Source: a virus
Virus record (IMG/VR): IMGVR_UViG_3300047629_000021
Location: 1 to 41,307 of that record
DNA length: 41,307 bases
Reading direction: 5' to 3' (one strand)
The notes below the pieces were generated by a model that was not told the DNA's origin, made no database searches, and worked only from the letters and a program-made list of their open reading frames with translations. The translations under genes and the position numbers were made by a program. Shown here in pieces: positions 16,872 through 41,284 of this stretch; within the stretch, counting starts at the first letter, position 1; every line of letters starts with the position of its first letter.

Positions 16872-16904
16872 AGTGTTAAAATGCCAGCCAGCATCCGGTC
16901 TCTG

Positions 16905-18565: not shown

Positions 18566-18566
18566 A

Positions 18567-19069: not shown

Positions 19070-19079
19070 TGGTGACAGA

Positions 19080-21857: not shown

Positions 21858-21865
21858 ATTTCAAC

Positions 21866-21953
21866 AGGGCGGTAGTGCAAATCCAGCACGCGGGGCAGCC
21901 AATTTTAGACGAATGGCCCCGAGATGGTGGTGAGAATCCATCCTGCCCTGCCA
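21866..21953 (+). tRNA. tRNA-like structure with enlarged anticodon arm, CCA encoded
   Basis: Starts 8 bases after the previous tRNA. Acceptor AGGGCGG pairs with CTGCCCT (one G-T), followed by discriminator G and CCA. TA at positions 8-9 and a D stem GTGC/GCAC are normal, but the D loop lacks GG. The T stem is GGTGG/CCATC around TGAGAAT, a non-standard loop. The anticodon arm is 31 bases, with CGGGG/CCCCG closing a 21-base loop that contains TTTAGAC (possible anticodon TAG, leucine). The anticodon is therefore uncertain; it may be a degenerate tRNA or a tRNA mimic. Confidence 0.45.
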
Positions 21954-21959
21954 ATTTAA

Positions 21960-22025
21960 CCGCCGACATGGTAGCAGGCACGCACGGGTTACAGGACCGA
22001 GAAGCGACTGCGAGAGTATCGGCGG
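21960..22025 (+). ncRNA. Inverted repeat before terminase, possible RNA structure over the ribosome site
   Basis: CCGCCGA (21960-21966) and TCGGCGG (22019-22025) are perfect complements separated by 52 bases, about tRNA size, but no CCA follows and the inner arms do not fold well. The right arm overlaps the GGCGGGGA that forms the ribosome site of terminase large subunit (ATG 22036). It may be a decayed third tRNA or a translational control element. Confidence 0.35.
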
Positions 22026-22035
22026 GGATTTTACA

Positions 22036-23472
22036 ATGAGCGTCAAATCCCACCTATTGCCATCGACGTTTGCACGGAAGGTTTTGCGCCTACCGCTGTA
22101 CCCGATTCAGCAGGAGATTGTGGACGCGTTTTATTGGGATGGCACGAAGGACAGAGTGCAGGTGACGTGTCGGACGTGCAACGAGTCGGGGAAGACGACG
22201 CGGTTACTGCCGACAGTGATTTGCGAGCATATTTTGAAGTTCCCGCGGGATCAAAGGGGGGGTGGGGTGGTTTGCACGTCTGGATCCTGGAACCAAATCG
22301 AGTCGCAGTTGATGCCGGCGCTTCGGTCCATGATTGAAGCGACACCGGCGATGGCGGGGTACGAGGTGCAGGCGACGAAGATCATGTATCGCGGGATGCC
22401 GCAGTTAGTGGCGTTTTCGACGGATAATCCGCTGGCGGCAGAAGGTTTTCATGGGAACAAGGACCGGCCATTGATGGTGATCGAGGATGAGGCGAAGTCG
22501 GTTCCGGACCCCGTGGCGTTGGCGTTGGATGAAAGGTGCAATCCGCAGAAGATTGGGTACTTCAGTTCGCCGGGGGCGGCGGAGGGGCATTTTTACCAGT
22601 CACACACGGATCCGGCGTGGGCGGACTGGGTGAGGTTCAAGGTTCCGGCGTCGATGTGCCCGCACATCACGAAGGAGTCAATTGAACGGAGGATTCGGAA
22701 GAACGGGGAGGAATCGCAGATTGTGCGGTCGGCGATCGACGCGGAATTCATGGAATTTGTGGAGGGGGGAATTTTCAGTTTGAAAGACGTCGAATTGTGC
22801 TGGGAACATCCGCCGGAGAGGAATGGAACAGATCGGAGCGCGTTTTTGGATTTCGCGGCGGGGATTGATGAAAACGTGATCGCGTTTCGACGCGGTAACA
22901 TGGTTTGGATTGTGGACTCCTGGGTGGACAAGGACACCGATCGGGCAACGATGCGGTTTTTGAATGGGTTGAACGAACTCAAGCGTGTTCACGGGTTGCG
23001 TCCGGAAGAGGTTGAAGGGGACGACGACGGTATTGGTAAACTTTTCATCAACACGTTGGCGGCTAATGGGTGGCCGATTGGAAGGTTCCATGGGAACTCG
23101 GCGCCAGTCTCCGGCGACATGTACGCCAATCGGATCACGGAGAACTGGATTGCTGGGGCGGACAAGGTACGGAAATGCCAGGTGATTTTACCGCGGGACG
23201 AGGAATTAAAGGGGCAACTACTCAATCGCCGGTCGAAAGGGAAAAAGGTGGGGAACGAGGTCCGGCTGGCGATGGAGACGAAGGAGGAATTACGGGCGCG
23301 CGGGGTTCAGTCACCGGACCGGGCGGACGCGGTGCTGGGAGCCTTGGGCGTGAGGCCGTTCGTCGGGAATTTCAATTTGGCGCGGCAACCTGCGGAGGAG
23401 TACGAAGGCAAGGAATATTTGGACTCGCCGCAGCGATACGAGCCCATGGAAGTGGCGGGTACAAGGTGCTAA
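22036..23472 (+). CDS. terL: Terminase large subunit (478 aa)
   Basis: DNA-packaging motor. The ATPase part has the P-loop CNESGKTT with K53, an unusual variant lacking the first Gly of the Walker A motif, and Walker B LMVIEDEAK with D151 and E152. The C-terminal RNase H-like nuclease has D272 (FLDFAAGID), an acidic cluster at 329-331 and SPDRAD near 453-458. GGGGA 7 bases before ATG is a good ribosome site. Length is normal for the family. It packages DNA into the procapsid together with the portal encoded directly downstream. Confidence 0.93.
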   Translation: MSVKSHLLPSTFARKVLRLPLYPIQQEIVDAFYWDGTKDRVQVTCRTCNESGKTTRLLPTVICEHILKFPRDQRGGGVVCTSGSWNQIESQLMPALRSMIEATPAMAGYEVQATKIMYRGMPQLVAFSTDNPLAAEGFHGNKDRPLMVIEDEAKSVPDPVALALDERCNPQKIGYFSSPGAAEGHFYQSHTDPAWADWVRFKVPASMCPHITKESIERRIRKNGEESQIVRSAIDAEFMEFVEGGIFSLKDVELCWEHPPERNGTDRSAFLDFAAGIDENVIAFRRGNMVWIVDSWVDKDTDRATMRFLNGLNELKRVHGLRPEEVEGDDDGIGKLFINTLAANGWPIGRFHGNSAPVSGDMYANRITENWIAGADKVRKCQVILPRDEELKGQLLNRRSKGKKVGNEVRLAMETKEELRARGVQSPDRADAVLGALGVRPFVGNFNLARQPAEEYEGKEYLDSPQRYEPMEVAGTRC

Positions 23473-26358: not shown

Positions 26359-27285
26359 ATGTCATTCGATACCTTCGAAATTAACGCATCGCCGGATGAA
26401 CTGGCCACGATGACCGCGCAACTTGACGCGGCAGAGAGCCGGGACTTTCCGAATGCCAGTGCGAACGACGGGGACCGCACCCCCGAACCGAAGACACCGG
26501 AAGCCAAGGTGCCTGAAACGCCCGAAGCCCAAGCCGAAGCCAAACCCAAAGACAGTTCCAGCACACCAGACGCCAGCAAAACGCCGGAAACCAAACCGGC
26601 TGATGATCCAAACGCCAAAAAGAGCAATTACGCCAGGGAAATGGACCGGCGCGATAAATCGTGGAAGGCGCTCAACGAGGAAAAGGAAGCGTTCAAGGCC
26701 CAGCAGGCCGAACTTGCGCAGCAACGCCAGAAGTTCCAACAGGAACGGGAAGCCGCGCTCGCCGCTGAACCTGAATTCACGGCGGAGCAGTACCTGATTG
26801 CCGCCAAGAAATTCGGCGAGGAAGGCAGGATTGATCTTGAACAGGAGGCCATTGAACTGGCCAACCATATCAAGGCCAATCCTCCGGAACTCGCCGCAGT
26901 GCAGCGAAAGCAGGCCGCCCGAATCGGGGCGCAGCAACAGGAATCGCTTGCTCGCGCGCTCGGCCAGACGCCCGACTTGGGAAAGCCGGGCACGCCGCTC
27001 AACCTGGAGGCGCAGAAGATTGTCAGTGAAGACCCTCACGTTTGGAACACGCATCCCAATGCGTGGGAGCATTTGGCGCGCGTGGCCACCGCTCGTTTGC
27101 AGGCGGCTCGTGTGCCGGAATTGGAAAAGGATTTGTCCAAGGCGCAGGCGCGGGTAGCAGAACTGGAAAAGCTGACGAGCGTCGGACCGCAAGGAGGGCC
27201 TGCCGGCCAACTCCCGGAAACCAATCAACCCGATGACGAAGGCGCAATCCGCGCCGCCGTTCGGGCCGCAGACGCCGGACGCTAA
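26359..27285 (+). CDS. Putative capsid scaffolding protein (308 aa)
   Basis: Directly upstream of the capsid gene, acidic and highly helical. Residues 40-90 are a Pro/Glu/Lys linker; residues 95-150 are a coiled-coil-like Gln/Lys/Glu region; residues 260-280 are another helix. Composition, size and position fit phage scaffolding proteins, which guide capsid assembly and then leave. AGGA before ATG is a modest ribosome site. No protease domain is seen. Confidence 0.7.
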   Translation: MSFDTFEINASPDELATMTAQLDAAESRDFPNASANDGDRTPEPKTPEAKVPETPEAQAEAKPKDSSSTPDASKTPETKPADDPNAKKSNYAREMDRRDKSWKALNEEKEAFKAQQAELAQQRQKFQQEREAALAAEPEFTAEQYLIAAKKFGEEGRIDLEQEAIELANHIKANPPELAAVQRKQAARIGAQQQESLARALGQTPDLGKPGTPLNLEAQKIVSEDPHVWNTHPNAWEHLARVATARLQAARVPELEKDLSKAQARVAELEKLTSVGPQGGPAGQLPETNQPDDEGAIRAAVRAADAGR

Positions 27286-27302
27286 ACCAGTCCCCAAAAC
27301 AC

Positions 27303-28328
27303 ATGGCAACACAGACACTTACCAATCCAGCAGACGTGGCAAATAGGTTGCAGACCTATTTTTCGCGCAAACTGCTTGATCCCATCGAAAACACGCTGGT
27401 CCTGGACCAGTTCGCACAGACGGAGGACCTGCCTGCCAACATGGCGGCGAAAACAATCCGATTCTTCAGGCGCCGGCAAGCAGGGGCAAATGCCAATCCG
27501 CTTACCGAAGGCGTCGCAATCGCCGCTTACGCTGAAGTGGCATCAGGCTATGTCGATTGCACGCTCTCTCAACGCGGCGAGGCGGCGAAGCTCTCGGACA
27601 TCCTGCAATGGACGGACATCTTCAACTGGCTGAATCAGAACGTGGACACGCTGGTCGAGGACGCCGCCCTGGACTTCGACACCATCACCCGCAACGCCAT
27701 TGTCACCGGGTTGAATAACTCGAATGGCAACTACGAACGGTTTTCCGGCGTCCAAAACACCGGTAACAGTGCCGCCGACTTCACGTCACTCGCCGGGTTG
27801 TCTCCGGCCGCCGGGGCCTCGTTCTCGCGCAACGCCGCGCTGGCCTGTGCCACGCAATTGATGAGCCACAAGGTGCCGCGCATGAATGGCGGATATGTGG
27901 GAGTACTGCCACCGCAGGTGATGCATGACGTGCGCAAGGATCCGACCTGGATACTCTCCGCGCAGTACGGAAAGCAGGAGACCTTATACAAACACGAGGT
28001 TATCACCCTGGACGGCATCCGCTACGTGGAAGGAACCAATCCCTTCGTCGAATCTGTCTACGGAACCTACAATTCCGCCGGGTCGATCTTTACGACCATG
28101 ATTATCGGAAGGGGCGCCTATGGGACTCCGAAGCTCACCAAGACAACGAGCCCGATGAAGCCCCAGATCATCATCAACAATAAGCCGGACAAATCCGACC
28201 CGTTGAACCAATTCACGACCCTCGGCTGGAAAGCCTACTGGGGCGCCGTGGCGCTCATCACGAACCTGGCGGTGGGGGATGATCCGCCTCACTTCGTCCT
28301 GTACCGGTCGAAATCCAGCTTCGTGTAA
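27303..28328 (+). CDS. Major capsid protein, N4-gp56 type (341 aa)
   Basis: Pattern of the N4 gp56-like HK97-fold capsid family: an N-terminal RKLLDPIENTLVLDQFA, KTIRFFRR, the TEGV loop (NPLTEGVAIAAYAEVASGY), KLSDILQWTDIFNWL, and a C-terminal GWKAYWGAVALITNLAV. Forms the shell. Typical length for the family. No signs of a cleaved pro-domain. The downstream gene is the first of the signal-peptide genes. Confidence 0.85.
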   Translation: MATQTLTNPADVANRLQTYFSRKLLDPIENTLVLDQFAQTEDLPANMAAKTIRFFRRRQAGANANPLTEGVAIAAYAEVASGYVDCTLSQRGEAAKLSDILQWTDIFNWLNQNVDTLVEDAALDFDTITRNAIVTGLNNSNGNYERFSGVQNTGNSAADFTSLAGLSPAAGASFSRNAALACATQLMSHKVPRMNGGYVGVLPPQVMHDVRKDPTWILSAQYGKQETLYKHEVITLDGIRYVEGTNPFVESVYGTYNSAGSIFTTMIIGRGAYGTPKLTKTTSPMKPQIIINNKPDKSDPLNQFTTLGWKAYWGAVALITNLAVGDDPPHFVLYRSKSSFV

Positions 28329-28361
28329 ACCGAACAGACCAGAATTCAACTGAACACGAAT

Positions 28362-29039
28362 ATGAAAATCATCAAAATCCTCATCACGGCGGCACTGGCA
28401 ATGCTCGCCCTCGAAACGCAATCGCAAGTTGTCTCCCTCAAATCATTCGGGGTGGGAGGCACGGCGGTCAACACGAACCTCATGTATGCGGTCGTCCCTC
28501 CCGGCGAGGGGCGGCCCGTTGTGACGTTTATCAGCGCAAGCTCCGATCAGGCGGCAGCGCAGACTGGAGCAGGAACGGCGGTCACCGGCGGTGTGTTGAA
28601 GCTTTACAGCATCAACGAAGCCCAACCCGTGACATTGGCCAGCGCGGTGGCGACCAATCAGGTACAGGTGACGATTGGCACCAACTTCGTGAGCAACACG
28701 GTCTGCATTTACTACTCGATGACCGGGACGAACGCGAATACGTACCAGCGACTGGTTGCAAATACCAACACGAGCGTCACCAATGTGACGTTTTCGAGCA
28801 ATACCACGGGCGCCACAGGGCCCGGCGACATTCTCTACCGGTGCGCCCTGGTGAGCACGATACCGATTGGTAGCGGGACCATCAACCTTGGGAATGGAAC
28901 CGGGCCAATCTGGTCACTCCCAGTTGCCGCCGGGACAACGCCACCGGTATCGTGGCCGATGCTCATTGAGTCATCCGGAATCGGTACGAACGTCATCAAT
29001 ATCCACGTTTCAGGAAACTACGTGAGACCAAGCCAGTAA
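28362..29039 (+). CDS. Secreted or virion protein with signal peptide (225 aa)
   Basis: Residues 1-22 are a Sec-type signal peptide (MKIIKILITAALAMLALETQ, cleavage near SQ). The mature part is Asn/Thr/Ser/Gly-rich with beta-strand character and no Cys pair. It follows the capsid gene, where head decoration proteins lie, but a signal peptide is odd for a protein that must assemble in the cytoplasm. A strong hairpin lies after its stop. Function unknown; head decoration or exported fibre-like protein. Confidence 0.6.
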   Translation: MKIIKILITAALAMLALETQSQVVSLKSFGVGGTAVNTNLMYAVVPPGEGRPVVTFISASSDQAAAQTGAGTAVTGGVLKLYSINEAQPVTLASAVATNQVQVTIGTNFVSNTVCIYYSMTGTNANTYQRLVANTNTSVTNVTFSSNTTGATGPGDILYRCALVSTIPIGSGTINLGNGTGPIWSLPVAAGTTPPVSWPMLIESSGIGTNVINIHVSGNYVRPSQ

Positions 29040-29046
29040 GCAACAT

Positions 29047-29074
29047 GGCGGCGGGTGCAACAACACCCGCCGCC
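29047..29074 (+). terminator. Strong hairpin, possible terminator or mRNA stabiliser
   Basis: GGCGGCGGGTG, a CAACAA loop and CACCCGCCGCC form an 11-bp perfect stem. Only a weak T-run (GATTTTA) follows 12 bases later, so termination would be partial. It separates the head genes from the next gene (ATG 29092) and could set capsid mRNA level. Confidence 0.6.
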
Positions 29075-29091
29075 TCAACCCAAACGATTTT

Positions 29092-29463
29092 ATGAGCAAA
29101 CCAGGATTGGCAATCGCGATCGGCGTCCCGAAGGACGGCGACGAAGGCGAGAAGGACGGCAAAGATGGAGGCATGGATGAAGTCGGAGAACTGTGCCTCC
29201 CTCAAGACACGGTGGCGACCGCGAACGAGCGGGACGAGAAGGTGGCTCCCGAAGTTGGGGACGAGGTCCGGTTCGATTGCGTGGCGAAGGTTACCAAGGT
29301 GGAAGGCGGGAACGTCTACGTTTCGCCCACCGAGGTAAACGGCCAGCCAGTCGGCGACGAAAACGAGGAGCCCGATAAAGGCCCGGACGCGGACAACGAG
29401 GATTCAATGCGGAACATGGCTCAGAGCGCCGACACGGCGGCATCCGCGCAAGGAGGGTACTGA
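29092..29463 (+). CDS. Acidic late protein of unknown function (123 aa)
   Basis: Very acidic: DGDEGEKDGKDGG near the start, a small beta part VGDEVRFDCVAKVTKVEGG near residues 55-75, and an acidic Asp/Glu-rich tail. It lies in the head gene region and could be a minor head or decoration protein. No signal peptide. Family not recognised. Confidence 0.6.
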   Translation: MSKPGLAIAIGVPKDGDEGEKDGKDGGMDEVGELCLPQDTVATANERDEKVAPEVGDEVRFDCVAKVTKVEGGNVYVSPTEVNGQPVGDENEEPDKGPDADNEDSMRNMAQSADTAASAQGGY

Positions 29464-29464
29464 T

Positions 29465-29911
29465 ATGTTGAGAACTTCATTAAAAGACGATGCGATGCCA
29501 TTTGCGCTGTTGATCGCGTGGATCGCAGCAATGGTATTTTTAGCGGTATGGATGCCCGACAAGGCCCGCGCGCAAGTTGCCGGATCGCCGACCGCGACAG
29601 TATCCAGCACGGCGGTTGGCGGAACATTGATCGCCTTCAAGGGCTACTGCACGGGCTACAATCTGGTTGCCTATAGCACGAACACAACGGCTACGGTTTA
29701 CATGCTCGTGTTCGACACCAACGCTGTTCCGGCCAACGGTACAGCCCCAACCCTGCCACCGATCAAAATGGTTGGAAACCAGACGGCCTCCTACACCGTG
29801 GATGGTGGCGTGAGATTCACGAATGGGATTGTGATCGGGCTATCGACAACGGACATCACGTTTACGGCGACCAACTGCGGGTGGTTCAACGCGGTGTACC
29901 TGGCGCAATGA
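29465..29911 (+). CDS. Secreted beta-rich protein (148 aa)
   Basis: A strong ribosome site (AAGGAGGG) supports ATG 29465. Residues about 11-37 form a signal peptide (MPFALLIAWIAAMVFLAVW then ARAQ). The mature part is a short beta-rich domain with two Cys (residues about 60 and 138) that could bond in the periplasm. Resembles the C-terminal parts of other fibre-like proteins in this block. Function unknown. Confidence 0.6.
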   Translation: MLRTSLKDDAMPFALLIAWIAAMVFLAVWMPDKARAQVAGSPTATVSSTAVGGTLIAFKGYCTGYNLVAYSTNTTATVYMLVFDTNAVPANGTAPTLPPIKMVGNQTASYTVDGGVRFTNGIVIGLSTTDITFTATNCGWFNAVYLAQ

Positions 29912-30984
29912 AAACTTTACTGCTATTGCTCGCGATTCCGGTGATTGCATTTGGACAGGTGAATGTGGTTCCACCTTCGTTTACGCAGTCCACCAACATC
30001 GTCACGCAGTCACTCGGCTCACTGAATGTCACGAACTCGACGGCTACCGGGAGCCTTATTGTCACTAACGGGGCTCAGTTCCAGTCCGGCGGAACGTTCG
30101 ATAATGTCGTGGTGACCAATGCCTCGAAATTGAATGGATCAACGACTACGGACAATCTGACGGTGACCAATGCGACGACGCTGAAGGGGACCGGGACCTT
30201 CCAAGGAGCGGTGACGGAAACCAGTTTCGTTTCCACCAACGCGAGTTCGGTCAACGCACTGCTGTCCGTTGATAGCCTGACTTCCACAAATGCGAATACG
30301 TTAAAAGGCGCCACGACCGCTAATAGTCTAACGGTATCCAATGCGGCAGCATTTCAAACCGCGATCACTGCCGCCGGGGCCACGCTCACGAATGCCAGCA
30401 GTGTCAATGCCTTGCTTTCGGTGGATAGCCTCACGGTTACCAACGCCGTGATTAACAAGGGAACCACCACGATGAACGGTGCAGCGACTACACCAAGTCT
30501 TGTGGCGACCAATTCCCTCAAGCTGCTGAACGCCACCGCGTCACAGATTGCCGTGATTGCCGCAGACCAGACAGTCACGAATGGAACCACAACTGCAAAT
30601 CTGGTGCTCACGGCTGGATCTTTGGACACCGCGCAGACCGTCCAGACGACCGGCAAGCCGACCTACGCGAATGTGTACCTGAATCAATCGACGCTGACCT
30701 ATGCGGCTACTGTGACGGTGGACTTCTCCGGGGACGGTTTCAAAACTCTGGCCTTGACGGGAAACGAGACGTTCGCGAGTTCGAACCTCGCGGCAAACCG
30801 GGCGGTGACCATCAAGATTCTCGCCGACAATTCCTCGCGCAATTTCACGTTCCCAGGCGGCTGGATTTTCGTCGGCGCAGCGGCCCCAGCGTCCATCGCC
30901 GCGAACAAAACCGCAATCCTGAGCCTCACGGCCTATGGCGCGGCGGACGCCAACGTTGTGGCCGCGTACGCAGTCCAGCCATGA
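29908..30984 (+). CDS. Fibre-like protein with signal peptide and TNA repeats (358 aa)
   Basis: ATGA overlap fixes the start at 29908. Residues 1-16 are a signal peptide ending AFGQ. Residues 35-240 repeat a pattern like LTVTNATTLKGT about every 20 residues, as in triple-helical beta fibres of phage tails, and TNASSVNALLSVDSLT occurs twice almost unchanged. The C-terminal 90 residues (DFSGDGFKTLALTG, ILSLTAYG) look like a globular fibre tip. It is probably a trimeric fibre, exported or displayed. Confidence 0.65.
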   Translation: MKTLLLLLAIPVIAFGQVNVVPPSFTQSTNIVTQSLGSLNVTNSTATGSLIVTNGAQFQSGGTFDNVVVTNASKLNGSTTTDNLTVTNATTLKGTGTFQGAVTETSFVSTNASSVNALLSVDSLTSTNANTLKGATTANSLTVSNAAAFQTAITAAGATLTNASSVNALLSVDSLTVTNAVINKGTTTMNGAATTPSLVATNSLKLLNATASQIAVIAADQTVTNGTTTANLVLTAGSLDTAQTVQTTGKPTYANVYLNQSTLTYAATVTVDFSGDGFKTLALTGNETFASSNLAANRAVTIKILADNSSRNFTFPGGWIFVGAAAPASIAANKTAILSLTAYGAADANVVAAYAVQP

Positions 30985-31925
30985 CACGTTTGCTGACATT
31001 ATTTCTAGCGGTATTCTGCGCGGTCTCGCATGGGCAGACGCAGACGACTCGGGATCTGGCGTTTCTCGGGAGCGTAACCCCGGCGGCTGGCGGTACGCTT
31101 TTCCTGGACACCTACTCGACGAACACGAGCAGCGCCTACGCGACTATCCTGCTTCGGACGGCGTACACCGGTCCACTCGTCAGGATTCGCGAGAGCGGCG
31201 GGAACACGGAAAAAGATTTCTACCAAGGCGCCACCGTCGGTTCCCTGAACGCGACGCGCGGCGGCGGCGGACAGGACGCCCTGACTTTCTGCGCCGGGGT
31301 GAACGGCCTGCTTCCCCGAATTTACGCTCAGGACACGAACGGCTCTCCGACGCTCGACATGGTTCAGGCGACCGCCGGAAGCCAGCCGGTGATCATCAGC
31401 GGTGGTGCGTATGTGGCGTTGCAGAACTCGATTCCGGGCATCGGATTCACGAACGCCTTCATGACGGTGACGAATGCGAATGCCTACGCTGCTCCGGCGA
31501 ACTACCACGTTTTCACGGTGGCTAAACAGACAGCGGCAATCGCCTACATGGGAATATTTCACCCGGACAACATGACGACCGGATGGGGGCTGCTGGAAAA
31601 GGGCGCTGGTGGACAACTCGGAATTGAGCGCGCCAACGCCGCAAAGTTCCAAACGACTGCTCTCGTAAATGGAACCATTTATCTTTTCGACGCTAGCTAC
31701 GACGGCACCGATCACCTTTTCAAAAACGGTAGTGCGGACGAACAGGCTGTCACGGATTCCGGCTATGGAACCAATCCAGCGGCATTTGGGACCGGGTACA
31801 ACAACAACACCGCACAAGGCTGGAACGGGTTGGTCTGGTGCGTGATCACATTTAGCAAGGCGCTCGGTAACAACGCCGCCGGAGCCCGCACCGCCCTGGA
31901 CAACATCTACACCGGAATCCCATGA
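30981..31925 (+). CDS. Secreted lectin-like (ConA/LamG-type) protein (314 aa)
   Basis: ATGA overlap at the start. Signal peptide at residues 1-19 (LLTLFLAVFCAVSHGQ). The mature N-terminus SAYATILLRTAYTGPLVRIR resembles the segment found before ConA-like or arabinofuranosidase-B-type domains in tail proteins (SLRkLyTGplIRVR), and ATAGSQPVIISGGA followed by IPGIGFTNAFMTV fits the LamG/ConA-like fold to the C-terminus. Probably carbohydrate binding. No catalytic residues are identified. Confidence 0.6.
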   Translation: MTRLLTLFLAVFCAVSHGQTQTTRDLAFLGSVTPAAGGTLFLDTYSTNTSSAYATILLRTAYTGPLVRIRESGGNTEKDFYQGATVGSLNATRGGGGQDALTFCAGVNGLLPRIYAQDTNGSPTLDMVQATAGSQPVIISGGAYVALQNSIPGIGFTNAFMTVTNANAYAAPANYHVFTVAKQTAAIAYMGIFHPDNMTTGWGLLEKGAGGQLGIERANAAKFQTTALVNGTIYLFDASYDGTDHLFKNGSADEQAVTDSGYGTNPAAFGTGYNNNTAQGWNGLVWCVITFSKALGNNAAGARTALDNIYTGIP

Positions 31926-32245
31926 AAACCTTCCTCGCATTCTTTTTCGTGTGCCTAGCCTGCCAAGCGCAGGTCAAGGCTCAGTCGGTCATCGCCACCA
32001 ACTACAACGTGCTCACCTTCGCCTCGTGGAATCTCGCGACGAACCGGAGCGCGCAGATTGCGACGGCCGCCGGGTGCGGGCAGGACCCGAAAGATGGCAC
32101 CAAGTTTTGGTTCATGCCCGTTACCAACGGGGTCGCCTGCGGGCTGCTCGTGCCGCTGGCGGAGACCAACAAACTGACGACGATTGAGCGTGCTGCGCTT
32201 GTGCCTTACACCACCAATTTCACCAATTCCGTCAACCCTCCGTGA
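31922..32245 (+). CDS. Small secreted protein (107 aa)
   Basis: ATGA overlap at the start. Signal peptide at residues 1-20 (MKTFLAFFFVCLACQAQVKA). The mature part has Asn/Thr-rich strands and two Cys (about residues 52 and 73) that could form a disulphide. Its stop is directly followed by the ATG of the receiver-domain gene. Function unknown. Confidence 0.55.
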   Translation: MKTFLAFFFVCLACQAQVKAQSVIATNYNVLTFASWNLATNRSAQIATAAGCGQDPKDGTKFWFMPVTNGVACGLLVPLAETNKLTTIERAALVPYTTNFTNSVNPP

Positions 32246-32701
32246 ATGACGCTTTTCAACATCGAAAACCTGAACCTGGGATCGCTTCGATTCTGGCGGC
32301 GAAAAACCATCGTGGTTTACATCGACGACGCGCGCGAGTTGCTCAAGTTGTCGGAATTGCTGGTTCGCGGAACACGGTGCCAGATATTTCCATTCAGCAA
32401 CGGACCCGATGCGTTGGCGTTCATGGAGTCATTCAGCGGTCAAATCGATCACGTTCTTTTGGACATGGCCATGCACGGGATGGACGGAATCGAAGTGTTC
32501 CGCCGACTTCGCACGGAACCGCTTGCGGAGAAACTCGCGGATACTCCGGTGACCATTCTCAGTGCTGCGGCTTTGGACGATACTCAATGGTCGGCACTGG
32601 AACGCTACGGTGTATGCAGCTTGGTGCGGAAGAATCCCGCTCAGGATCACATGTTTCTGAGAATCCTGGAGCATTTCAAGTTGGTAAAACGTCGGCGATA
32701 G
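32246..32701 (+). CDS. Stand-alone response-regulator receiver protein (151 aa)
   Basis: A CheY-type receiver domain fills residues about 20-148. All key positions are present: acidic pair D27/D28 (VYIDDARELL), phosphoacceptor D73 (VLLDMAMHGMDG), the Thr/Ser switch at S106 (VTILSAA) and K129 (LVRKNPA). There is no output domain and no kinase gene nearby. It is placed between exported fibre-like genes and the holin-like genes. It could intercept a host histidine kinase or phosphotransfer signal; this is inference. Very unusual for a small phage. Confidence 0.85.
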   Translation: MTLFNIENLNLGSLRFWRRKTIVVYIDDARELLKLSELLVRGTRCQIFPFSNGPDALAFMESFSGQIDHVLLDMAMHGMDGIEVFRRLRTEPLAEKLADTPVTILSAAALDDTQWSALERYGVCSLVRKNPAQDHMFLRILEHFKLVKRRR

Positions 32702-32710
32702 GGAGCGATT

Positions 32711-32962
32711 ATGGGCGAAACGACATTTCAAACTAAAAATGATCGGATTGGATTTTCGATCGCGAGGGTCGGCGGACTGGCATTCATCGCCGTCACGCTC
32801 GGTGGCCTGTTCATCTGGCTCGCGGGAATTCCGCTTCGGATTGAGGCAGCCGAGAAGAAAATCGAGGCGTTGGAAATGCGTTCCAAGGCGAGCGAGGACA
32901 TGCTTTCGCGAATTGACGAGCGAACTAAAATAATTCTGGAACGGATTGGAGGCCAGCGATGA
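32711..32962 (+). CDS. Small membrane protein with C-terminal coiled coil (83 aa)
   Basis: GGGAG ribosome site. Residues about 18-40 are one transmembrane helix (VGGLAFIAVTLGGLFIWLAG), followed by a charged coiled coil (EAAEKKIEALEMRSKASEDM). This is the layout of phage inner-membrane lysis accessory proteins such as i-spanin or holin partners. It ends in an ATGA overlap with the next membrane gene. Confidence 0.6.
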   Translation: MGETTFQTKNDRIGFSIARVGGLAFIAVTLGGLFIWLAGIPLRIEAAEKKIEALEMRSKASEDMLSRIDERTKIILERIGGQR

Positions 32963-33264
32963 CCGACGACACAAAACAATTTGTGAAGGATGAGATTCAG
33001 AAGTCCGCCATGGATATCTGCAAGGAGCATTTCGGGAAATGGAATGTCACCTACCTCAAATACCTCGCCATGCTCTCAACCGGAATGGCCGCGATCATCG
33101 TTGATTTCTTCCATGGCACGGCGTTTTTGTGGACGGATTGGGCGTCATTCGGCGGCAAGGTGCTCGCCGTCTTTGGGTCCGTCACAACCGCTTTTATCGA
33201 TTCCACGTACACCGACACAAAAAAGGGCGCGGCCCCTATCCCGCCGCAAGAACCACCAAAATGA
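32959..33264 (+). CDS. Putative holin-like membrane protein (101 aa)
   Basis: ATGA overlap at the start. Hydrophobic stretches near residues 33-52 (YLAMLSTGMAAIIVDFF) and 60-80 (SFGGKVLAVFGSVTTAFI) could be two membrane segments, with a charged N-terminus and a Pro-rich tail. Size and position between a spanin-like gene and a lipoprotein gene suggest a holin. No match to a specific holin family is claimed. Confidence 0.5.
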   Translation: MTDDTKQFVKDEIQKSAMDICKEHFGKWNVTYLKYLAMLSTGMAAIIVDFFHGTAFLWTDWASFGGKVLAVFGSVTTAFIDSTYTDTKKGAAPIPPQEPPK

Positions 33265-33734
33265 AAACACTGATCCTATTGTTAATCGTCGCCCTGACCG
33301 GGTGCTCAACCCACGGACTTTTGCAGAAGCCTCCGGTGGCGCACAGCGTAACCGGGACTATGAAAGTGCAAAAAATAGCGCTGTCTCAGAACCCGTTGAC
33401 GGGAATGTACGAGGCTGGAATTCAATGGGGGCAATTCTCATTCGCGGTAATGCCAATTGTCTACACGACGAATTCCAGCGGTGCGATAATCGATTATGTC
33501 GTACCCGATGGCATCACGCGGGCGGAAGACAAGGCCGGAAATGGAATATTTGGACGCGCCGGAACCACATGGACATTCGCAATTGGAAAAACAGCCGTTC
33601 AACAGCTACTTGGCGGAGCGGCAGTTTCGATCAATCAGAATACCGATGTCAGTGTGAGTAATCCGCACTCGCCACAGCCGCCGACGACCACGCCATCTTC
33701 GGCCACCAACACGCTTCCGGTGAAACTGCCGTGA
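33261..33734 (+). CDS. Putative lipoprotein of the lysis region (157 aa)
   Basis: ATGA overlap at 33261. Signal peptide with lipobox LTGC at residues 13-16 (MKTLILLLIVALTGCS), so the mature protein is predicted to be an outer-membrane lipoprotein. The middle is beta-rich and the last 30 residues are Pro/Thr/Ser-rich. It could be an outer-membrane spanin, but it is larger than usual o-spanins and may have another envelope role. Confidence 0.6.
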   Translation: MKTLILLLIVALTGCSTHGLLQKPPVAHSVTGTMKVQKIALSQNPLTGMYEAGIQWGQFSFAVMPIVYTTNSSGAIIDYVVPDGITRAEDKAGNGIFGRAGTTWTFAIGKTAVQQLLGGAAVSINQNTDVSVSNPHSPQPPTTTPSSATNTLPVKLP

Positions 33735-34678
33735 GAAAAACGCTCACCATCGTCATTCCGGTCTACAACATGGCCGGGCTTTTGCCGCGGTGTCTGGACG
33801 CCATTAAGTCGCAGACCCGTATCCCTGATTGCGTCCTTATCATAGACGACCATTCCGTTGATGGTTCGCTGGCCACCGCCATTCGTTACGCGACGGGACA
33901 TCAACAATTCGATGTCCTTCCGATGCCTGAAAATGCGGGGGTAGTGTGCCGGATGAATGACGGGTTGGAAATGTCCGAAACCGACTACATCTATTTCGCC
34001 GCGGCAGATGACCGGATTGAACCGCGCTTCGTTGAGACGCTGATGGCCGCAGCGGAATCTAACCCGGACGCGCCAATGGTCCACTGCCGATCAATCTTCC
34101 GCGAAGTGGAAACCGGATTCGCGTGGAAGGCAGGAAGCAAAACGCAACCCGCGAGCAATGCCACGATTTTCAAAACGTCGGCGCTCAAGGAACTCGGTGG
34201 ATTCGATACGGAGTTGAAGTGGCATTCGGATTGGATGGCCTGCCAGGGGCTTTCGAGTGGCGCTATTTTCGTTCCGGAAGTGATCGCGACGGCGAATATT
34301 CACGCGGATGGGTATTGCTCAAAAGGGAGGAATTCCGAGGAGCAAAAGGAAGTGTTGGCGAGACTCATCCTACGGTGCGCGGCATGTGGTGTTCCGATCC
34401 GCCGACTCTGTATTTTCGGTTGGCCAGTAGTAGCCGCTGCGGAACTTCATGGCGGATTTACTTGGCCGGTTATCGCCCGCTGCGCCACCCACTCCTTATG
34501 CGTCACCGCCAAAAACTGCCTCGCGTGGCTGATTCCGAAATTGAGATTCACATTCGCTCTCCTGGTCGCGCTGCCAATCGCCGTGTGCGCCCTGGCCTTG
34601 TGGTCAATCGGCTGTTTGGTCGCCCTTTGTTGCCGAGGATTCTACGAAGGTCAGATTGAGGAGCACCCGAGATCATGA
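33731..34678 (+). CDS. Family 2 glycosyltransferase with C-terminal membrane segments (315 aa)
   Basis: GTG start overlapping the previous stop (GTGA). The GT-A fold is clear: TIVIPVYN at 6-13, VLIIDDHSVDGS around 35-46, and ADD at 92-94 for nucleotide-sugar and metal binding. Around residues 190-215 is the region before the acceptor site (GGFDTELKWHSDW). Hydrophobic segments near 270-305 would anchor it to the membrane. It would add a sugar to a lipid, polysaccharide or protein; a role in serotype change against superinfection is an inference. Confidence 0.85.
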   Translation: MRKTLTIVIPVYNMAGLLPRCLDAIKSQTRIPDCVLIIDDHSVDGSLATAIRYATGHQQFDVLPMPENAGVVCRMNDGLEMSETDYIYFAAADDRIEPRFVETLMAAAESNPDAPMVHCRSIFREVETGFAWKAGSKTQPASNATIFKTSALKELGGFDTELKWHSDWMACQGLSSGAIFVPEVIATANIHADGYCSKGRNSEEQKEVLARLILRCAACGVPIRRLCIFGWPVVAAAELHGGFTWPVIARCATHSLCVTAKNCLAWLIPKLRFTFALLVALPIAVCALALWSIGCLVALCCRGFYEGQIEEHPRS

Positions 34679-35391
34679 AAGACGGACTCATAGCAATCTG
34701 CTCGCAGTTGAGCTTGGACGTTTACCGCGCGCCCGGCGAGGACGATGCCGCGTGCGAACTCCGATTCCGACACCAGCACGGTCACCGGGGATCAATCGCA
34801 TGGATTCATGAGCTATCCACCGATACCCATTGCGTGGTGATCTTCGGAAAGGACTACACCTTTTGCGGATTCCGGGGAACGGAATCGTTCAAGGTGGCGA
34901 TGATTGATGCGGATTGCCTTGTGACTGACCAAGGGTGGCATGATGGGTTTGACCGGGCGTGGAAGTCCGTTTGCGAGCGTGTTTTGAATCTCGTCTCGTT
35001 CTGCGTTCCTCCGTTGGTGCTATGGGGCCATTCCGCAGGCGGGGCGATCGCTGTCCGCGCGCAGTGGGATCTCAAACCCGCGCATATTCGCACTTTCGGA
35101 CAGCCTCCGGTCGGCGTTGGCCGAGTCGTGGACAACATCCGAAATTGTTGTCTCTCCTGGATTCGCGGAGTGAACTATTTGGACATCGTTCCGCGGTCGA
35201 TCATTTTCCTGCCGCACCGGGGAGATGTCATTGAATGGGATGGACACGGGCGCCCGCACTGGAATCCAGGATGGCACTGGCGGCTTGCGCTATGGATTCG
35301 AGGACTCTGGCGGGCGGCCATAAAACATCGCGACGAATTGTTGCGTGACCACCACGCGGCGACCTACGCGAGATTGGGGGCGTCGTTTTGA
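34675..35391 (+). CDS. Class 3 lipase-like alpha/beta hydrolase (238 aa)
   Basis: ATGA overlap at the start. The class 3 pattern is present: the oxyanion segment FRGTES at 67-72, WHDGF at 88-92, the nucleophile elbow GHSAGG with S120, the acid D170 in NYLDIVPR, and a His in DHHAATY at 225-231. No signal peptide, so access to a lipid membrane depends on lysis or on a membrane surface. It may attack membrane lipid or acyl groups to help lysis; no peptidoglycan hydrolase was recognised nearby. Confidence 0.8.
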   Translation: MKDGLIAICSQLSLDVYRAPGEDDAACELRFRHQHGHRGSIAWIHELSTDTHCVVIFGKDYTFCGFRGTESFKVAMIDADCLVTDQGWHDGFDRAWKSVCERVLNLVSFCVPPLVLWGHSAGGAIAVRAQWDLKPAHIRTFGQPPVGVGRVVDNIRNCCLSWIRGVNYLDIVPRSIIFLPHRGDVIEWDGHGRPHWNPGWHWRLALWIRGLWRAAIKHRDELLRDHHAATYARLGASF

Positions 35392-36386
35392 AAAGATTAT
35401 TTCCAGTCGTCGCCCTCGTGATTCTCGTTGGCTGCGCGATCTACGCTCAGTCCACCGGTGGCCGCATCGGCAAGTTCGAGCGGTTCAACCCAGCGCAGTT
35501 TTCCCAGAATCAGGAGGTCATTGGGATTGGTAGCGGTGCCGCGTTCACGAATCTGGTTCTTGTCACGCCGGTCATCACGTTTACGAATGGAAGCTCGCCG
35601 ATTTTCACGAATGCTATCGATGGGAATCAGTTTACGTACGACACCAAGCTGCACGCCAAGAGCGGGATTATCCTGACGAATTTGGACGCGAGGGATGCCG
35701 CTGGCGACATTGGAAGCGTGCAAGTAGGCAATCGTGCTGTATCAGGACTGAATGGAACCGCCGTCGGAGCCGCTGCGAACGTCGGGGCAGGAGCTACGCA
35801 CGGCGCGGCGTTTGGAGCCACGTCAATTGTTTCCGCGAATCACAATAATTCCTCTGCGTTTAATGATGGGATCACAACCGCTGCCCATCAAATGCGCATG
35901 GGAACATCGCTCGATGATCTGAACGTTCCCGGCACTCTGACTATCACAAACACCACGCCAACGACCATGGCGGCGTTCAACGGATCACGGCAGGTATCAA
36001 GTTCCACTCCGGACGCGAGTCAATTCGTTTTCGATGCGAATGGTCTGCACCATATTAGCGGATCAAAGAGTACAAACGCTAGCCTCACGGGAACAACCCT
36101 GCTTCCAGCCGTTGGTGACAAGTTGAGTATCAAAGAGGGCGGCGGCAGCTATACCAGCAATGCCAGTATGGGGGCGAACGCTCTGTCTGCTGGAACGATG
36201 ACCATTGCCAGCACAACGGTTACGGCGAACACCAGGATTTTCCTATCGGTTGCTGCCAAGGGTTCGAATCCGCTCGGCATTCCGTACATTTCCGCCCAGA
36301 CGGCAGGCGTTTCGTTTACCGTTACCAGCACCGCCGCAACCGATAATGCCATCATCGCATGGCTCCTCGTTGAACCTGGACCTTAA
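35388..36386 (+). CDS. Lipoprotein-like fibre with YadA-type head repeats (332 aa)
   Basis: Starts at TTG overlapping the lipase stop (TTGA), giving MKRLFPVVALVILVGC with a lipobox-like Cys16 and a second possible cleavage at YAQ. Residues about 110-170 show the trimeric autotransporter head pattern (QVGNRAVSGLNGTAVGAAA, AAFGATS, HQMRMGTS). The last 90 residues (TMTIASTTVTANTRIFLSV, DNAIIAWLLVE) look like the globular C-terminal domain of tail fibres. A trimeric fibre or surface adhesin is likely. Confidence 0.65.
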   Translation: MKRLFPVVALVILVGCAIYAQSTGGRIGKFERFNPAQFSQNQEVIGIGSGAAFTNLVLVTPVITFTNGSSPIFTNAIDGNQFTYDTKLHAKSGIILTNLDARDAAGDIGSVQVGNRAVSGLNGTAVGAAANVGAGATHGAAFGATSIVSANHNNSSAFNDGITTAAHQMRMGTSLDDLNVPGTLTITNTTPTTMAAFNGSRQVSSSTPDASQFVFDANGLHHISGSKSTNASLTGTTLLPAVGDKLSIKEGGGSYTSNASMGANALSAGTMTIASTTVTANTRIFLSVAAKGSNPLGIPYISAQTAGVSFTVTSTAATDNAIIAWLLVEPGP

Positions 36387-36387
36387 T

Positions 36388-36684
36388 ATGCCACTTTACG
36401 ACTACCTCAACACGGAAACGGGACTGATCGAGGAACATTTCCGAACATGGCAGAATCGCGATTCTGTTCCGCCGTATCTGGTCCGTCAGGCGGTCTCCCG
36501 CATCTACGGACATCGGAAGCTCGATAATCCATCGGATGTCGATCAGGCCATGCCGCGCGCACTCCGGGAATTGGAGTGTAATCAGCCTTCACAGCATTTC
36601 GACAAGTTCGAACGCGAGCATGGATTTTCAAAGGATCACCTCAAGAGAGTGTGGAGCAAAGAGTGGACGAGCACTGTACCATGA
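36388..36684 (+). CDS. FmdB-like small protein without the zinc cysteines (98 aa)
   Basis: It begins MPLYDYLNTETGLIEEHF, like FmdB zinc-ribbon proteins (MPxYxYxC), but Asn stands where the first Cys is expected and no CxxC pairs are present. It may therefore only share the start pattern. ATG 36388 is one base after the fibre stop. The stop overlaps the next ATG. Function unknown. Confidence 0.55.
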   Translation: MPLYDYLNTETGLIEEHFRTWQNRDSVPPYLVRQAVSRIYGHRKLDNPSDVDQAMPRALRELECNQPSQHFDKFEREHGFSKDHLKRVWSKEWTSTVP

Positions 36685-37916
36685 AAACATTTCTGAAATA
36701 CGCGGCAATCGGTGGCCTGACGGCCTTTCTTCTGTCGAAAGCATATGGTGCCGACGTCTCGCCGGGACTTCCGCTGGGCCGTCCACTCCAAAATGGGGAC
36801 AACATCAATGCCGCCGTGCTAAACGGGTCCCTGAACGGGACCATCAATCCCAGCTTCTACACCGGGAAGGCGTTCCAAGGGAATCCGAGTTCCGCAAACG
36901 ACATCATTCTGATGTTCAACAATTCAAGCGGGATTTACGAGTATACCACTTATGGTCAATTTCTGGTAAATACCAATTTGATTGCGGGGCGCACGCCTTA
37001 TACCAGTGGAATTTCGAATAGTTTCAGCCTCCTTGTTTTGGACAATGCAGGGCAGATCCTCGGGCAGACGACGATTTCAAATCTGCTCTACTACGGTCTA
37101 CAGATGAACACCAACCAGTTTGCGCTGGCGACGAATTCTATCGGCACGTTCACTCTTTACTCGATCAGCAACGCGGTGTTTACGAATGTCCTGATAACGA
37201 ATTTTGTTTTCCAGGGCAATGTGACGAACGGCACTATGTCAGGGACTACGATTACCAATTGCTCAACGTCCAACTACTTTACAATTGGGGGAAATTCGAG
37301 CGGCAAATCTTCTCTCAGATTTTACGATAGCAGCGGGGCTGCCGGAGCTAGGGCGTGGGATTGGTCCCTCAATACAGGTGGACAGATGATGCTAAATGTT
37401 TGGGACGACGGTTTTTCTAATCCCGGAGGAGCTATAATGACTATCACGCGTGGGGTTGGAAATACCAATGTTCAGGCCGTTAATTTCACCATTTCAAGCA
37501 ATGGCGTGAACCAGATATTTCAAATCGTTCCTGCTGGAGTTTCAATTGGATCAGGAAACGCGATAGCGCAGGTCAACACCTACGATTCAGGTACAAATAA
37601 CGCGATTCCTGCGGCTGGGGGTGCGGTCACGAAAGCTCACGGTTTCCCGCTCTGTCCTACGGAGGTGAGGGCTGTATACGTCAACGTGACGGGTGAACTC
37701 GGATATTCAGCCGGGGATGAAATCGACGTCAAAGACTGCCTTGAAAAAACTGTGTCCTACCAGATTTTCCAAGTGGTGTGCGATGGAACCAATGTCACGC
37801 TGAGAAGGAAATCCACGGCGACTACCATTGAGGTGCTAAACAAAGGGACTGGCGTGATTGGTGACATGACTGAAGCAAATTGGAAAATGCGTATCTACGC
37901 CAAATACGTGAAGTGA
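36681..37916 (+). CDS. Secreted fibre-like protein (411 aa)
   Basis: ATGA overlap fixes ATG 36681. Signal peptide at residues 1-23 (FLKYAAIGGLTAFLLSKAYG). The N-terminal part has PLGRPLQNGDNINAAVLNG, a segment typical of tail-fibre starts; the body is Asn/Thr/Ser-rich beta sequence with TNA-type motifs, and the C-terminal domain ends MTEANWKMRIYAKYV, like several phage fibre tips. Predicted fibre or adhesin; the signal peptide is the odd part. Confidence 0.65.
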   Translation: MKTFLKYAAIGGLTAFLLSKAYGADVSPGLPLGRPLQNGDNINAAVLNGSLNGTINPSFYTGKAFQGNPSSANDIILMFNNSSGIYEYTTYGQFLVNTNLIAGRTPYTSGISNSFSLLVLDNAGQILGQTTISNLLYYGLQMNTNQFALATNSIGTFTLYSISNAVFTNVLITNFVFQGNVTNGTMSGTTITNCSTSNYFTIGGNSSGKSSLRFYDSSGAAGARAWDWSLNTGGQMMLNVWDDGFSNPGGAIMTITRGVGNTNVQAVNFTISSNGVNQIFQIVPAGVSIGSGNAIAQVNTYDSGTNNAIPAAGGAVTKAHGFPLCPTEVRAVYVNVTGELGYSAGDEIDVKDCLEKTVSYQIFQVVCDGTNVTLRRKSTATTIEVLNKGTGVIGDMTEANWKMRIYAKYVK

Positions 37917-38917: not shown

Positions 38918-39132
38918 AAAACTGGAACAAACGGCACCGGCGTGGTAATCCTCTTTCGCGTTCTACGGGTGGTAGCGTCGTTGGCTTCCGCCTCGGAGAC
39001 GTGCCGAAGGCGCTCGATAATCCGACGCTGAATAACCTTGCGGTTTCGGCGAGTATCGAAGGCTGGATGTACGCGGGGCCGGGCGCCCGGATGGCGACAC
39101 GATTCGGACTTCAGGAGGAACGATGCCGCTGA
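38914..39132 (+). CDS. Small basic late protein of unknown function (72 aa)
   Basis: GTG start overlapping the connector stop (GTGA) and an end that overlaps the nozzle gene by 10 bases. Basic N-terminus (NWNKRHRRGNPLSR) and no recognised domain. Its spacing supports a real gene. Confidence 0.6.
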   Translation: MKNWNKRHRRGNPLSRSTGGSVVGFRLGDVPKALDNPTLNNLAVSASIEGWMYAGPGARMATRFGLQEERCR

Positions 39133-40832
39133 TCAACATCGAAACGCTCGATGACCCGGTGCAACTGGAAAGGGTGCAGACTTTCCGTGGCGGGATGAAT
39201 TCCTTCGACACCCCGGAAAATCTGCCGTCAGACACCTCGCAGATTCTTGAAAACATGCTAGTGCCGGATAATCTCGTAGTACGGACACGGGAAGGAGCGG
39301 ACCCGATTGCCGGGAACAACGCACCAACTGGCGGTATTATTCAGGGGCTATTCTGGTTCAACCCACCGGCGTACTCCCCCGGAATCGTGGCAATCTGCAA
39401 CGCCATCTTTTCATCGTACGTCGGAGGCGCATGGTCCGCCGTGACCGTCACCGGTGGATCCAATTGGGGATCGACAACACGGATGGCGATTGCCCAAGGG
39501 GTGGACAAACTTTACGTCAGCGACGGCGTTGACGGACACCCATGGGTTCAGTGGACCGGGACCGGAAACGCCACGAAGCTCGGCACGAATGTTGGCACAG
39601 GTGGAAACATTGGTGACCCTCCAATGGGGGCCGGTGTCATTTTCTGGATTGGAAGCAGGATGTTCGCCACGGCGTTCCCGAATGGATTGACAAATTACAA
39701 CAACGACACGCTCTGTTGCTCGCTGGTGCTAGCCGCTGGAAATGCCTCCTGGGATAACGTGATCTGGAGCGTTCGAATCGGAGGAGGGGATGGGGACCCG
39801 ATCATCTCGGCTATCCCCATGCAGAACAATTGGATTTTGGTTCTGAAACAGAAATCGCTCTGGTTGGTCTACGCCGACCCGACTGCGACAAGCGCGGCGG
39901 GATGGACGGTACAGAATCTGACGCGCGAAATCGGGTGTGTCGGTGCGCGAGCAGCCACGATCAATGGCAATGACATCATGTTTCTGGCGAAGGACGGCAT
40001 TCGCAGTGTCCGGCGCATGGCCATCGGCGTGGACGAATACGAGGTTGTTCCGCCTGCCTCTGAACACGTCAAAAGTATAACCGATCGCATCAACTGGCAG
40101 TACGCGAACCTGGTCAGTGCGTGGCGCTATAAACAGTGGATTTTATTTTCGCTACCATTGGACGGGGCAACCACGAATACCGGGGTGCTGGTTTTCAACA
40201 CCCGGACTCAGACTTGGATGGGGCTTTGGAACAATCCGCAAAGCCCGACGTGGAATGTGACCCAATTCGCTACGGCGTACGGAATTGGTGCCAATAATGC
40301 GGACGTTCTACTGCTGGGGGATACCTCCGGCCACGTCAACAAGTGGAAGGACGATCAGGATGCCACGCTTGCGGCCACGTTTTTGGACAATGCATTTCCC
40401 TACCAGTCCCGATTAAGATCCCGGACATTTCAGTTTCAAGACACGGTGGCTACCAAGGACGCTTGGTACATGGAATTACGATTGCTGAATGTTGCTCCGA
40501 ACAATAGTGGCGGATTCACGATCAATGTGAATCTTTTCACGGATGACAATCAATTTCCGTCAGTGGTTTTGGCGCCGACAATCACAGCGGCCATCCTCGG
40601 CCAGATCGTGCTCCCGTTCGTATTGGCGGGAAATTCGCCGTATACTACCCGTGTGCCGCTCGACGTCCTACCAGATTTCAATCAGCTTTACGTGGACTTT
40701 GTGGCTCCCGTGGTGACAACCGTTCTCCCCGGTGGCAGGATTGTTTATACCGGTGGCGGATTGATTGAGATCAAGAATTTTACGATTGCCGCTTTCCTGA
40801 ACACAATATCGAACGACAGCAAGAGCCCGTGA
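39123..40832 (+). CDS. Tail nozzle / tail-stabilisation protein, P22 gp10-like (569 aa)
   Basis: A strong ribosome site (AGGAGGAAC) supports ATG 39123. The pattern is that of podovirus nozzle proteins: FRGGMNSFDTPENL near residue 21, QILENMLVPDNLVVRTREG, then repeated beta-propeller-like strands (KLYVSDGVDG, WILVLKQKSLWLVY, DIMFLAKDGIRSVRR, WKQWILFSLP-type) to about residue 420. A beta-sandwich C-terminal part follows. It closes the tail and guides ejection. Family placement by pattern, not by search. Confidence 0.75.
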   Translation: MPLINIETLDDPVQLERVQTFRGGMNSFDTPENLPSDTSQILENMLVPDNLVVRTREGADPIAGNNAPTGGIIQGLFWFNPPAYSPGIVAICNAIFSSYVGGAWSAVTVTGGSNWGSTTRMAIAQGVDKLYVSDGVDGHPWVQWTGTGNATKLGTNVGTGGNIGDPPMGAGVIFWIGSRMFATAFPNGLTNYNNDTLCCSLVLAAGNASWDNVIWSVRIGGGDGDPIISAIPMQNNWILVLKQKSLWLVYADPTATSAAGWTVQNLTREIGCVGARAATINGNDIMFLAKDGIRSVRRMAIGVDEYEVVPPASEHVKSITDRINWQYANLVSAWRYKQWILFSLPLDGATTNTGVLVFNTRTQTWMGLWNNPQSPTWNVTQFATAYGIGANNADVLLLGDTSGHVNKWKDDQDATLAATFLDNAFPYQSRLRSRTFQFQDTVATKDAWYMELRLLNVAPNNSGGFTINVNLFTDDNQFPSVVLAPTITAAILGQIVLPFVLAGNSPYTTRVPLDVLPDFNQLYVDFVAPVVTTVLPGGRIVYTGGGLIEIKNFTIAAFLNTISNDSKSP

Positions 40833-41284
40833 ATGACGTGATGCAAATCAGGCCAGTGGAACAAGTCATCCAAGCGATGATGGCTTTTCCACCGATTGAA
40901 TGCCCAGTGGCGCACCGGTTCACGCCGGGGCTCTATATCCGAACGGTGTTCATGCCGCGAGGCACTTTCGTGGTTGGAGTGAAATATCGCGTGGAACACC
41001 CGTTCACGTGCTATCGCGGAAAGGCCACCGTCTGGCATGAGACTGGCGAAGGTCGAATTGTGGAAGGTCCTGCCTTCGGCGTTACGGAGGAAGGAACGCG
41101 ACGGTATTTCCTGATTCACGAAGACACTTTCTGGTCAAATACCTATCCCAATCCTGAAAATGAGAAAGATCCGGATAAGATCATGGAACTCATGATTTTC
41201 CAGGAGGATTTCTCCGAATTCGTAGCCCCGGAGGACGTGAAGCGGCTCGATATGTGGAGGGAGAAAAAATTATGGCTGGTATAG
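40829..41284 (+). CDS. Cupin-like virion-region protein (151 aa)
   Basis: GTG start overlapping the nozzle stop. Conserved phage-cupin pattern: HRFTPGLYIRTVFMPRGTFV, then YRVEHPFTCYRGKATV, EEGTRRYFLIHEDTFW, and a His/Asp-rich end. Small cupin-fold proteins of this kind are found next to tail genes in many phages; the role is unknown (perhaps a virion cap or a metal-binding assembly factor). The end is duplicated at 3-104 by the terminal overlap. Confidence 0.7.
   Translation: MNDVMQIRPVEQVIQAMMAFPPIECPVAHRFTPGLYIRTVFMPRGTFVVGVKYRVEHPFTCYRGKATVWHETGEGRIVEGPAFGVTEEGTRRYFLIHEDTFWSNTYPNPENEKDPDKIMELMIFQEDFSEFVAPEDVKRLDMWREKKLWLV

Follow-up and report, generated by a model that had tools for sequence, protein, structure and literature searches.

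The DNA studied here is IMG/VR virus record IMGVR_UViG_3300047629_000021, positions 1 to 41,307 (the window, meaning the whole stretch of 41,307 bp analysed), and the subject is a late gene block at 28.3-37.9 kb in which eight genes, named below by their start positions (28362, 29465, 29908, 30981, 31922, 33261, 35388 and 36681), begin with predicted Sec signal peptides. Exact terminal repeats of 127 bp identify the window as a whole podovirus-type genome. Its plus-strand late genes are ordered terminase, portal, scaffold, capsid, the signal-gene block, tail stabilisation and short tail fibre, and the late block continues past the genome end with internal-type proteins at 1-7.8 kb. The minus-strand early genes include an Erf-like annealing protein, exonuclease VIII, a DNA methyltransferase and a primosomal protein; no integrase was recognised in the early genes searched, a subset of all early genes. 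Tailed phage particles are taught to be products of the cytoplasm, and the pattern described below suggests appendages made outside the cell interior that either become part of the particle or work at the cell surface.

The host of the window virus is likely to belong to the Verrucomicrobia, because relatives of its portal protein were found in two Verrucomicrobia metagenome-assembled genomes (MAGs; 40 and 42%), and the named phages with the best terminase matches are Akkermansia phages. Further portal relatives lie in an Acidobacteriia MAG, a Methylibium MAG, an Opitutae MAG and the isolate Geminisphaera TAV2.

Signal peptides in the late gene block

All eight open reading frames (ORFs) are present and have Sec-type N-termini (Table 1). 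A rule of our own, which combines n-region charge, a hydrophobic core and an AxA or lipobox site and flags genes scoring at least 9, picked out seven of them (28362, 29908, 30981, 31922, 33261, 35388 and 36681), and 28362, 29908, 30981, 31922 and 36681 display all the features of a signal peptidase I substrate (positive n-region, hydrophobic core and an AxA-type site within ~15-40 residues). Across the genes of the window the predicted signals were confined to the block, with 7/15 genes flagged at 28.3-37.9 kb vs 0/35 outside it (Fisher p = 6e-5), the core virion genes being free of signals by the rule. When residues 2-45 were shuffled, 400 sets averaged 1.3 flagged genes and never exceeded 5, against the seven observed. 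As controls, none of the 37 T7 proteins was flagged, and in lambda the rule selected Lom, Bor and Rz1 together with the signal-anchors Rz and RexB and zero virion proteins; since Rz and RexB are flagged, it cannot by itself tell signal peptides and membrane anchors apart.

The eighth gene, 29465, scores below the rule. A long n-region with almost no net charge (MLRTSLKDDA) precedes a 19-residue core and an ARA/Q site (the slash marks the predicted cut), so that its signal was called by eye and by orthology only; the orthologues L201:12210, L198:8604 and L175:9453 (L numbers denote related contigs and genomes) carry textbook signals. The observation of the earlier note, Sec-type N-termini on all eight genes, is confirmed, seven by the rule and 29465 by eye and through its orthologues. 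That note had also placed a lipobox cysteine in two of the proteins, which is clear for 33261 (LTG/C) and ambiguous for 35388, whose signal holds both LVG/C and a signal peptidase I site, IYA/Q, assigned by sequence. The signals are evidently translated, because the start of six genes lies in a 4-nt overlap with the preceding stop, a strong ribosome site (AAGGAGG) precedes 29465, and near the predicted cuts the signal genes of the window have no internal start equipped with a ribosome site. No clear second membrane span was found in the mature parts of the eight proteins, 35388 being borderline (Kyte-Doolittle, KD, 1.66 near the signal). Cysteine parity was considered as a sign of periplasmic disulfides and rejected, as the number is even in most window proteins, yet odd and even are about equally frequent across the clade.

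Predicted cleavage sites resemble those of likely hosts

Gln occupies position +1 of the predicted cut in 11/49 phage proteins vs 4% expected (p = 3e-6). The corresponding counts are 6/31 and 11/45 in two Verrucomicrobia MAGs and 0/11 in TAV2. By sequence, the phage cleavage sites resemble those of likely hosts, and the enrichment provides independent support for working cleavage sites. It recalls the Q-rule of Bacteroidetes, in which Gln is likewise enriched after the cut; the enrichment in the phages and the two Verrucomicrobia MAGs is weaker, at ~20-25% vs 59-77% for Porphyromonas species, and related phyla are stated to lack the Q-rule (PMC5837995).

The signal genes are largely restricted to one clade

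Relatives of the window virus on metagenomic contigs, which are fragments, were obtained by profile searches of IMG/VR and have capsid identities of 35-48%; single-sequence searches of IMG/VR with the window capsid or tail proteins returned nothing, and alignments were needed. Post-capsid genes rich in signals were found in L173, L201 (with L011 and L200), L170, L171/L172, L175, L198 and L179, where L170 is the same virus as L242 and L179 the same contig as L010. The L170 contig corresponds to bases 2-37936 of JAJPJM010000094.1 (L242, a Verrucomicrobia MAG contig of 42,678 bp) at 99.995%, and bacterial-type genes lie beyond 38.9 kb of that contig, which may hold a prophage or a joined assembly.

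On the capsid tree, one clade (support 100/99) contains the trait, 11/13 members having at least two signal genes in the stretch searched, and elsewhere only one row, L240, has as many. The tree needs 3 label changes, compared with a mean of 10.3 for shuffled labels and 0/500 shuffles as low. In the fetched stretches of the signal-rich set, which includes L240 and in which genes within one virus are not independent, 55/244 genes (22.5%) were flagged vs 4/606 (0.7%) in the marine sister phages (p = 2e-27), "marine" being a label inferred for signal-less relatives grouped in a single region of the tree and not taken from habitat records. L240, a separate capsid-tree lineage with seven flagged late genes at 11850-19106, suggests an independent origin. 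A distant GenBank podovirus, MW202801.1 (L004), carries a signal on a 461-aa fibre-position gene annotated as hypothetical (27247-28632), a possible further independent case.

Signals are kept in orthologues that are merely ~22-33% identical, and that of family A (28362) is present in every full orthologue (L179:9369, L201:11203, L242:15293, L175:8235 and L198:7341). These data bear on chance or annotation artefact, by which gene starts would have been extended N-terminally over hydrophobic codons. The gene calls are automatic, and the 55 flagged genes do include plainly false ones, namely the terminase L201:4715 (extended start), the acidic protein L242:15913 and some holin-like genes. Nevertheless, the start/stop overlaps and the ribosome site in the window, the constant signal of family A, and a contrast between clade and marine sisters that is very large and not in doubt despite these false calls make such an artefact hardly credible.

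No signal-bearing tail genes were seen in the Akkermansia phages Chambord and Chantilly, so the trait does not extend to all Verrucomicrobia phages. In Geminisphaera TAV2, the portal relative (L248) lacks signals on its fibre-position genes, and there is thus no cultured host with the trait yet.

Signal-bearing and signal-less forms of two families share the same gene position

Families F (36681) and B (29465) occur with and without signals in matching syntenic slots. A hidden Markov model (HMM) revealed the N-terminal domain of family F to be conserved in 26 proteins. It is preceded by a signal in the window, L179, L201, L242 and L173, whereas in L171, a clade member, and in other signal-less phages, including the marine L213, L199 and L187, the domain begins within the first few residues, the podovirus tail fibres of these phages starting with Met at the domain itself. 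The junction is exact, as L179 reads ...LIVGA/ADITPGYTFTSGEKNITHTKLN where L171 reads M/ADITPGYTFASGEKNITHTKLN. Over the first 45 aligned residues, L179 and L171 are identical at 33/45 positions, and so are L173, which has the signal, and L171. The gene lies before the tail genes, and its position is the same in L171, where the counterpart of the small gene 36388 also precedes it. Judged from these alignments, cleavage would give back a normal fibre N-terminus.

Family B carries a signal in the window and in L201, L198 and L175, and probably also in L179, a weak member; it lacks one in L242, L171, L177 and sister phages (marine L188 and others), where it takes the same place; its signal-less acidic neighbour is fused to it in L173, L174 and L243. 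Six long records, the complete window included, have one F and one B copy each, and no second, signal-less copy of either was found in them. Signal-less relatives suggest that F is needed on the particle, and with a single copy the exported protein would be the sole supplier.

Export is well supported by the conservation of signals among orthologues, the host-like bias for Gln at +1 and the exact fusion at domain starts, and we regard export and cleavage of the signal-bearing proteins as very likely. The same observations weigh on the scenario that the earlier note had given as its refutation, in which the hydrophobic N-termini stay uncleaved and serve as virion anchors, and on its variant in which they hold the proteins in the membrane while particles assemble. 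The flagging of lambda Rz and RexB and the long cores of 29465 and 35388 would suit an anchor, but most cores have 11-13 residues, the AxA or AxA-Q sites are conserved, Gln is enriched at +1 and the domain begins at the cut, so that this scenario is disfavoured and given a low probability.

It is similarly improbable that the genes are lysogenic-conversion cargo (morons), that is, host-like secreted proteins by which a prophage alters the cell surface. One relative adjoins bacterial genes in a Verrucomicrobia MAG contig, and both the signals and their rate are similar to those of genes in Verrucomicrobia genomes. Yet the genes are flanked by capsid and tail genes, share their direction and have 4-nt overlaps, their signal-less homologues are conserved late genes, and the early genes searched gave no recognisable integrase.

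Fibre features and a proposed two-compartment maturation

The fibre-like features listed in the earlier note were borne out in two proteins. 35388 ends in a K1-lyase-type domain (2e-20), and similar C-termini are found in Streptomyces phage minor tail proteins; residues 301-407 of 36681 match the tail fibre of Pseudomonas phage Bitten (37%, 2e-8). For the YadA-like head and ConA-like domain, none of the eight proteins gave a Pfam match, although divergent heads could be missed. 33261, which neighbours small membrane proteins, is probably an ordinary late-block lysis or surface lipoprotein outside the fibre group; its weak Cor and spanin-like PHROG matches fall mainly in the signal region (phrog_1119, E 0.018, residues 1-63).

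The earlier note had considered export of fibres to the cell surface, periplasmic assembly, adhesion between infected cells and receptor blocking. Export itself is supported, and of these explanations the relatives favour virion appendages made via the periplasm, because the same families are signal-less, syntenic and single-copy in sister phages. A dedicated surface-display system, which the note had raised as well, may exist but is not demonstrated by these data. In such a maturation, the capsid, portal, tail core and internal proteins would follow the usual course of synthesis and assembly in the cytoplasm, while the host Sec pathway would export families F, B and A, the TN-repeat and other fibre-like proteins and the K1-lyase-type spike. 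Signal peptidase I would cleave these appendages, which would fold in the periplasm, and once a holin opens the inner membrane, particles would meet them and be decorated before or at outer-membrane rupture. The benefit, at a guess, may be modification of the proteins by the host envelope, or the exclusion of sticky or enzymatic tips from the cell interior. We assign a probability of roughly 0.45 to the whole chain, by which true virion appendages leave through the Sec pathway, have their signals cleaved off and attach to particles, most likely at inner-membrane opening. More tentatively still, the clade as a whole may build its particle in two compartments that are joined at lysis, signals having been repeatedly gained and lost on single-copy virion proteins.

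Beyond the relatives, this maturation is favoured by the tail-fibre or tail-protein C-termini of family F and 35388. Several points weigh against it. The proposed virion status of F and B is drawn from homology, position and fold, not from particles, and the clade has no cultured member. The signals were predicted by our own rule. The jelly-roll model of family B is good (predicted local distance difference test, pLDDT, 90), but its good matches are uncharacterised phage proteins and its PDB matches are weak (Z 6-6.6) and do not stand out (KHP40 cement, Z 6.4; HFTV1 turret, Z 6.4); the family A model is poor (pLDDT 66), with partial likeness to tailspike, tail and tail-tube parts. Appendages freed at lysis would dilute quickly unless binding were fast. 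Finally, exported virion fibres in tailed phages were not found in the open-access literature and, as far as open papers go, such a route is undescribed for tailed viruses.

Virion proteins with cleavable signal peptides are familiar from the coats of filamentous phages, which belong to an unrelated virus type and assemble within the membrane as the particle is extruded. Tailed phages do encode exported proteins of late or accessory type, such as Lom and Bor of lambda, Llp of T5 and Cor; these are not virion parts, number one or two per phage and have no fibre domains. The Nixviridae phages of Porphyromonas gingivalis encode proteins with Sec signals fitting the Q-rule of the host, but these are five genes of unknown function, possible outer-membrane modifiers according to the authors, and are not established as fibre homologues with signal-less relatives (PMC10367356).

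The Nixviridae proteins would fit a different role, in which the exported proteins stay outside the virion and instead target the infected cell, its debris or the surroundings as secreted depolymerases, adhesins or receptor-covering decoys, the last sparing progeny from waste or keeping rivals out. Such surface action would also suit the carbohydrate-active or carbohydrate-binding C-termini, namely the K1-lyase domain here and, in relatives, an exported-type LamG protein (L173, 1.8e-9) and immunoglobulin (Ig)-like domains. It does not readily account for the docking-type N-terminus of F, kept after the signal at up to 33/45 identity, or for the fact that no further copy, free of the signal and able to serve the particle, was found in the six long records; it would leave unexplained how the proteins cross the outer membrane, and decoys would hinder the phage's own progeny too. 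We consider it the main rival to the two-compartment maturation and somewhat unlikely, though less so than anchors or morons.

If the two-compartment maturation is true, a clade with export signals precisely fused to single-copy fibre- or decoration-like genes breaks the rule of cytoplasmic assembly, lysis gains a new step in which particles are decorated as the inner membrane opens, and there is an explanation of how envelope modifications could reach phage fibres. For annotation, receptor-binding proteins could be dismissed as host-like secreted proteins where virion proteins are assumed to be signal-free.

Other genes and observations

The genes of the block and its flanks are listed in Table 1.

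Table 1. Features of the signal-gene block and flanking late genes (SP, signal peptide; SPII, signal peptidase II; slash, predicted cut)
Position	Strand	Feature	Evidence
27303-28328	+	Major capsid protein, no signal; used for the capsid tree	phrog_1357, 3e-37
28362-29039	+	Family A, 225 aa, signal at ~residues 1-21/25, first gene 3' of the capsid gene, beta-rich	SP rule 11.1
29092-29463	+	Acidic protein without signal, conserved partner between families A and B	Sequence comparison with relatives
29465-29911	+	Family B, 148 aa, jelly-roll domain, long signal, predicted cut after residue 36 (ARA/Q)	Orthology, model
29908-30984	+	TN-repeat fibre-like protein, 358 aa, signal cut AFG/QVNV	SP rule 12.5; 4-nt start/stop overlap
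30981-31925	+	314 aa, cut ~SHG/QTQ, possible ConA-like C-terminal half (no Pfam match)	SP rule 11.4
31922-32245	+	Small predicted exported protein, 107 aa, cut VKA/QSV	SP rule 12.0
32711-32962	+	Single membrane span followed by a coiled coil; may be an inner-membrane lysis protein, no family match	Sequence
32959-33264	+	Small membrane protein, possible holin, no family match	Sequence
33261-33734	+	Lipoprotein, lipobox LTG/C	SPII rule 15.3
35388-36386	+	Fibre or spike, 332 aa, C-terminal K1-lyase-type domain	PF24146, E 2.2e-20
36388-36684	+	Small protein without signal directly 5' of the fibre gene, kept in relatives	Gene order
36681-37916	+	Family F tail fibre, 411 aa, cut YGA/DVSPG, docking-type N-terminal domain, tail-fibre C-terminus	HMM, homology
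39123-40832	+	Tail stabilisation-type protein, without signal	tblastn to phage stabilization protein, 3e-15
40829-41284	+	Short tail fibre protein, without signal	phrog_12032, 1e-22

The late block also encodes a glycosyltransferase family 2 protein (33731-34678, 1e-20) and a class 3 lipase-like protein (34675-35391, 1e-5). Other large signal-bearing late proteins of the relatives, possibly spikes or enzymes, are L171:10067-11563, L242:16676-18283, L173:16722-19307 and L175:10500-11699; these four gave no clear Pfam matches and one weak match to LamG. A predicted tRNA-Met (21784-21857) lies inside ORF 21611-22039, directly ahead of the terminase gene. The hypothetical protein at 17222-18565 on the minus strand contains a long run of QVSAQVRDQVSDQ-type repeats, and a comparable GGTVQSV repeat is present at the left end of L011.

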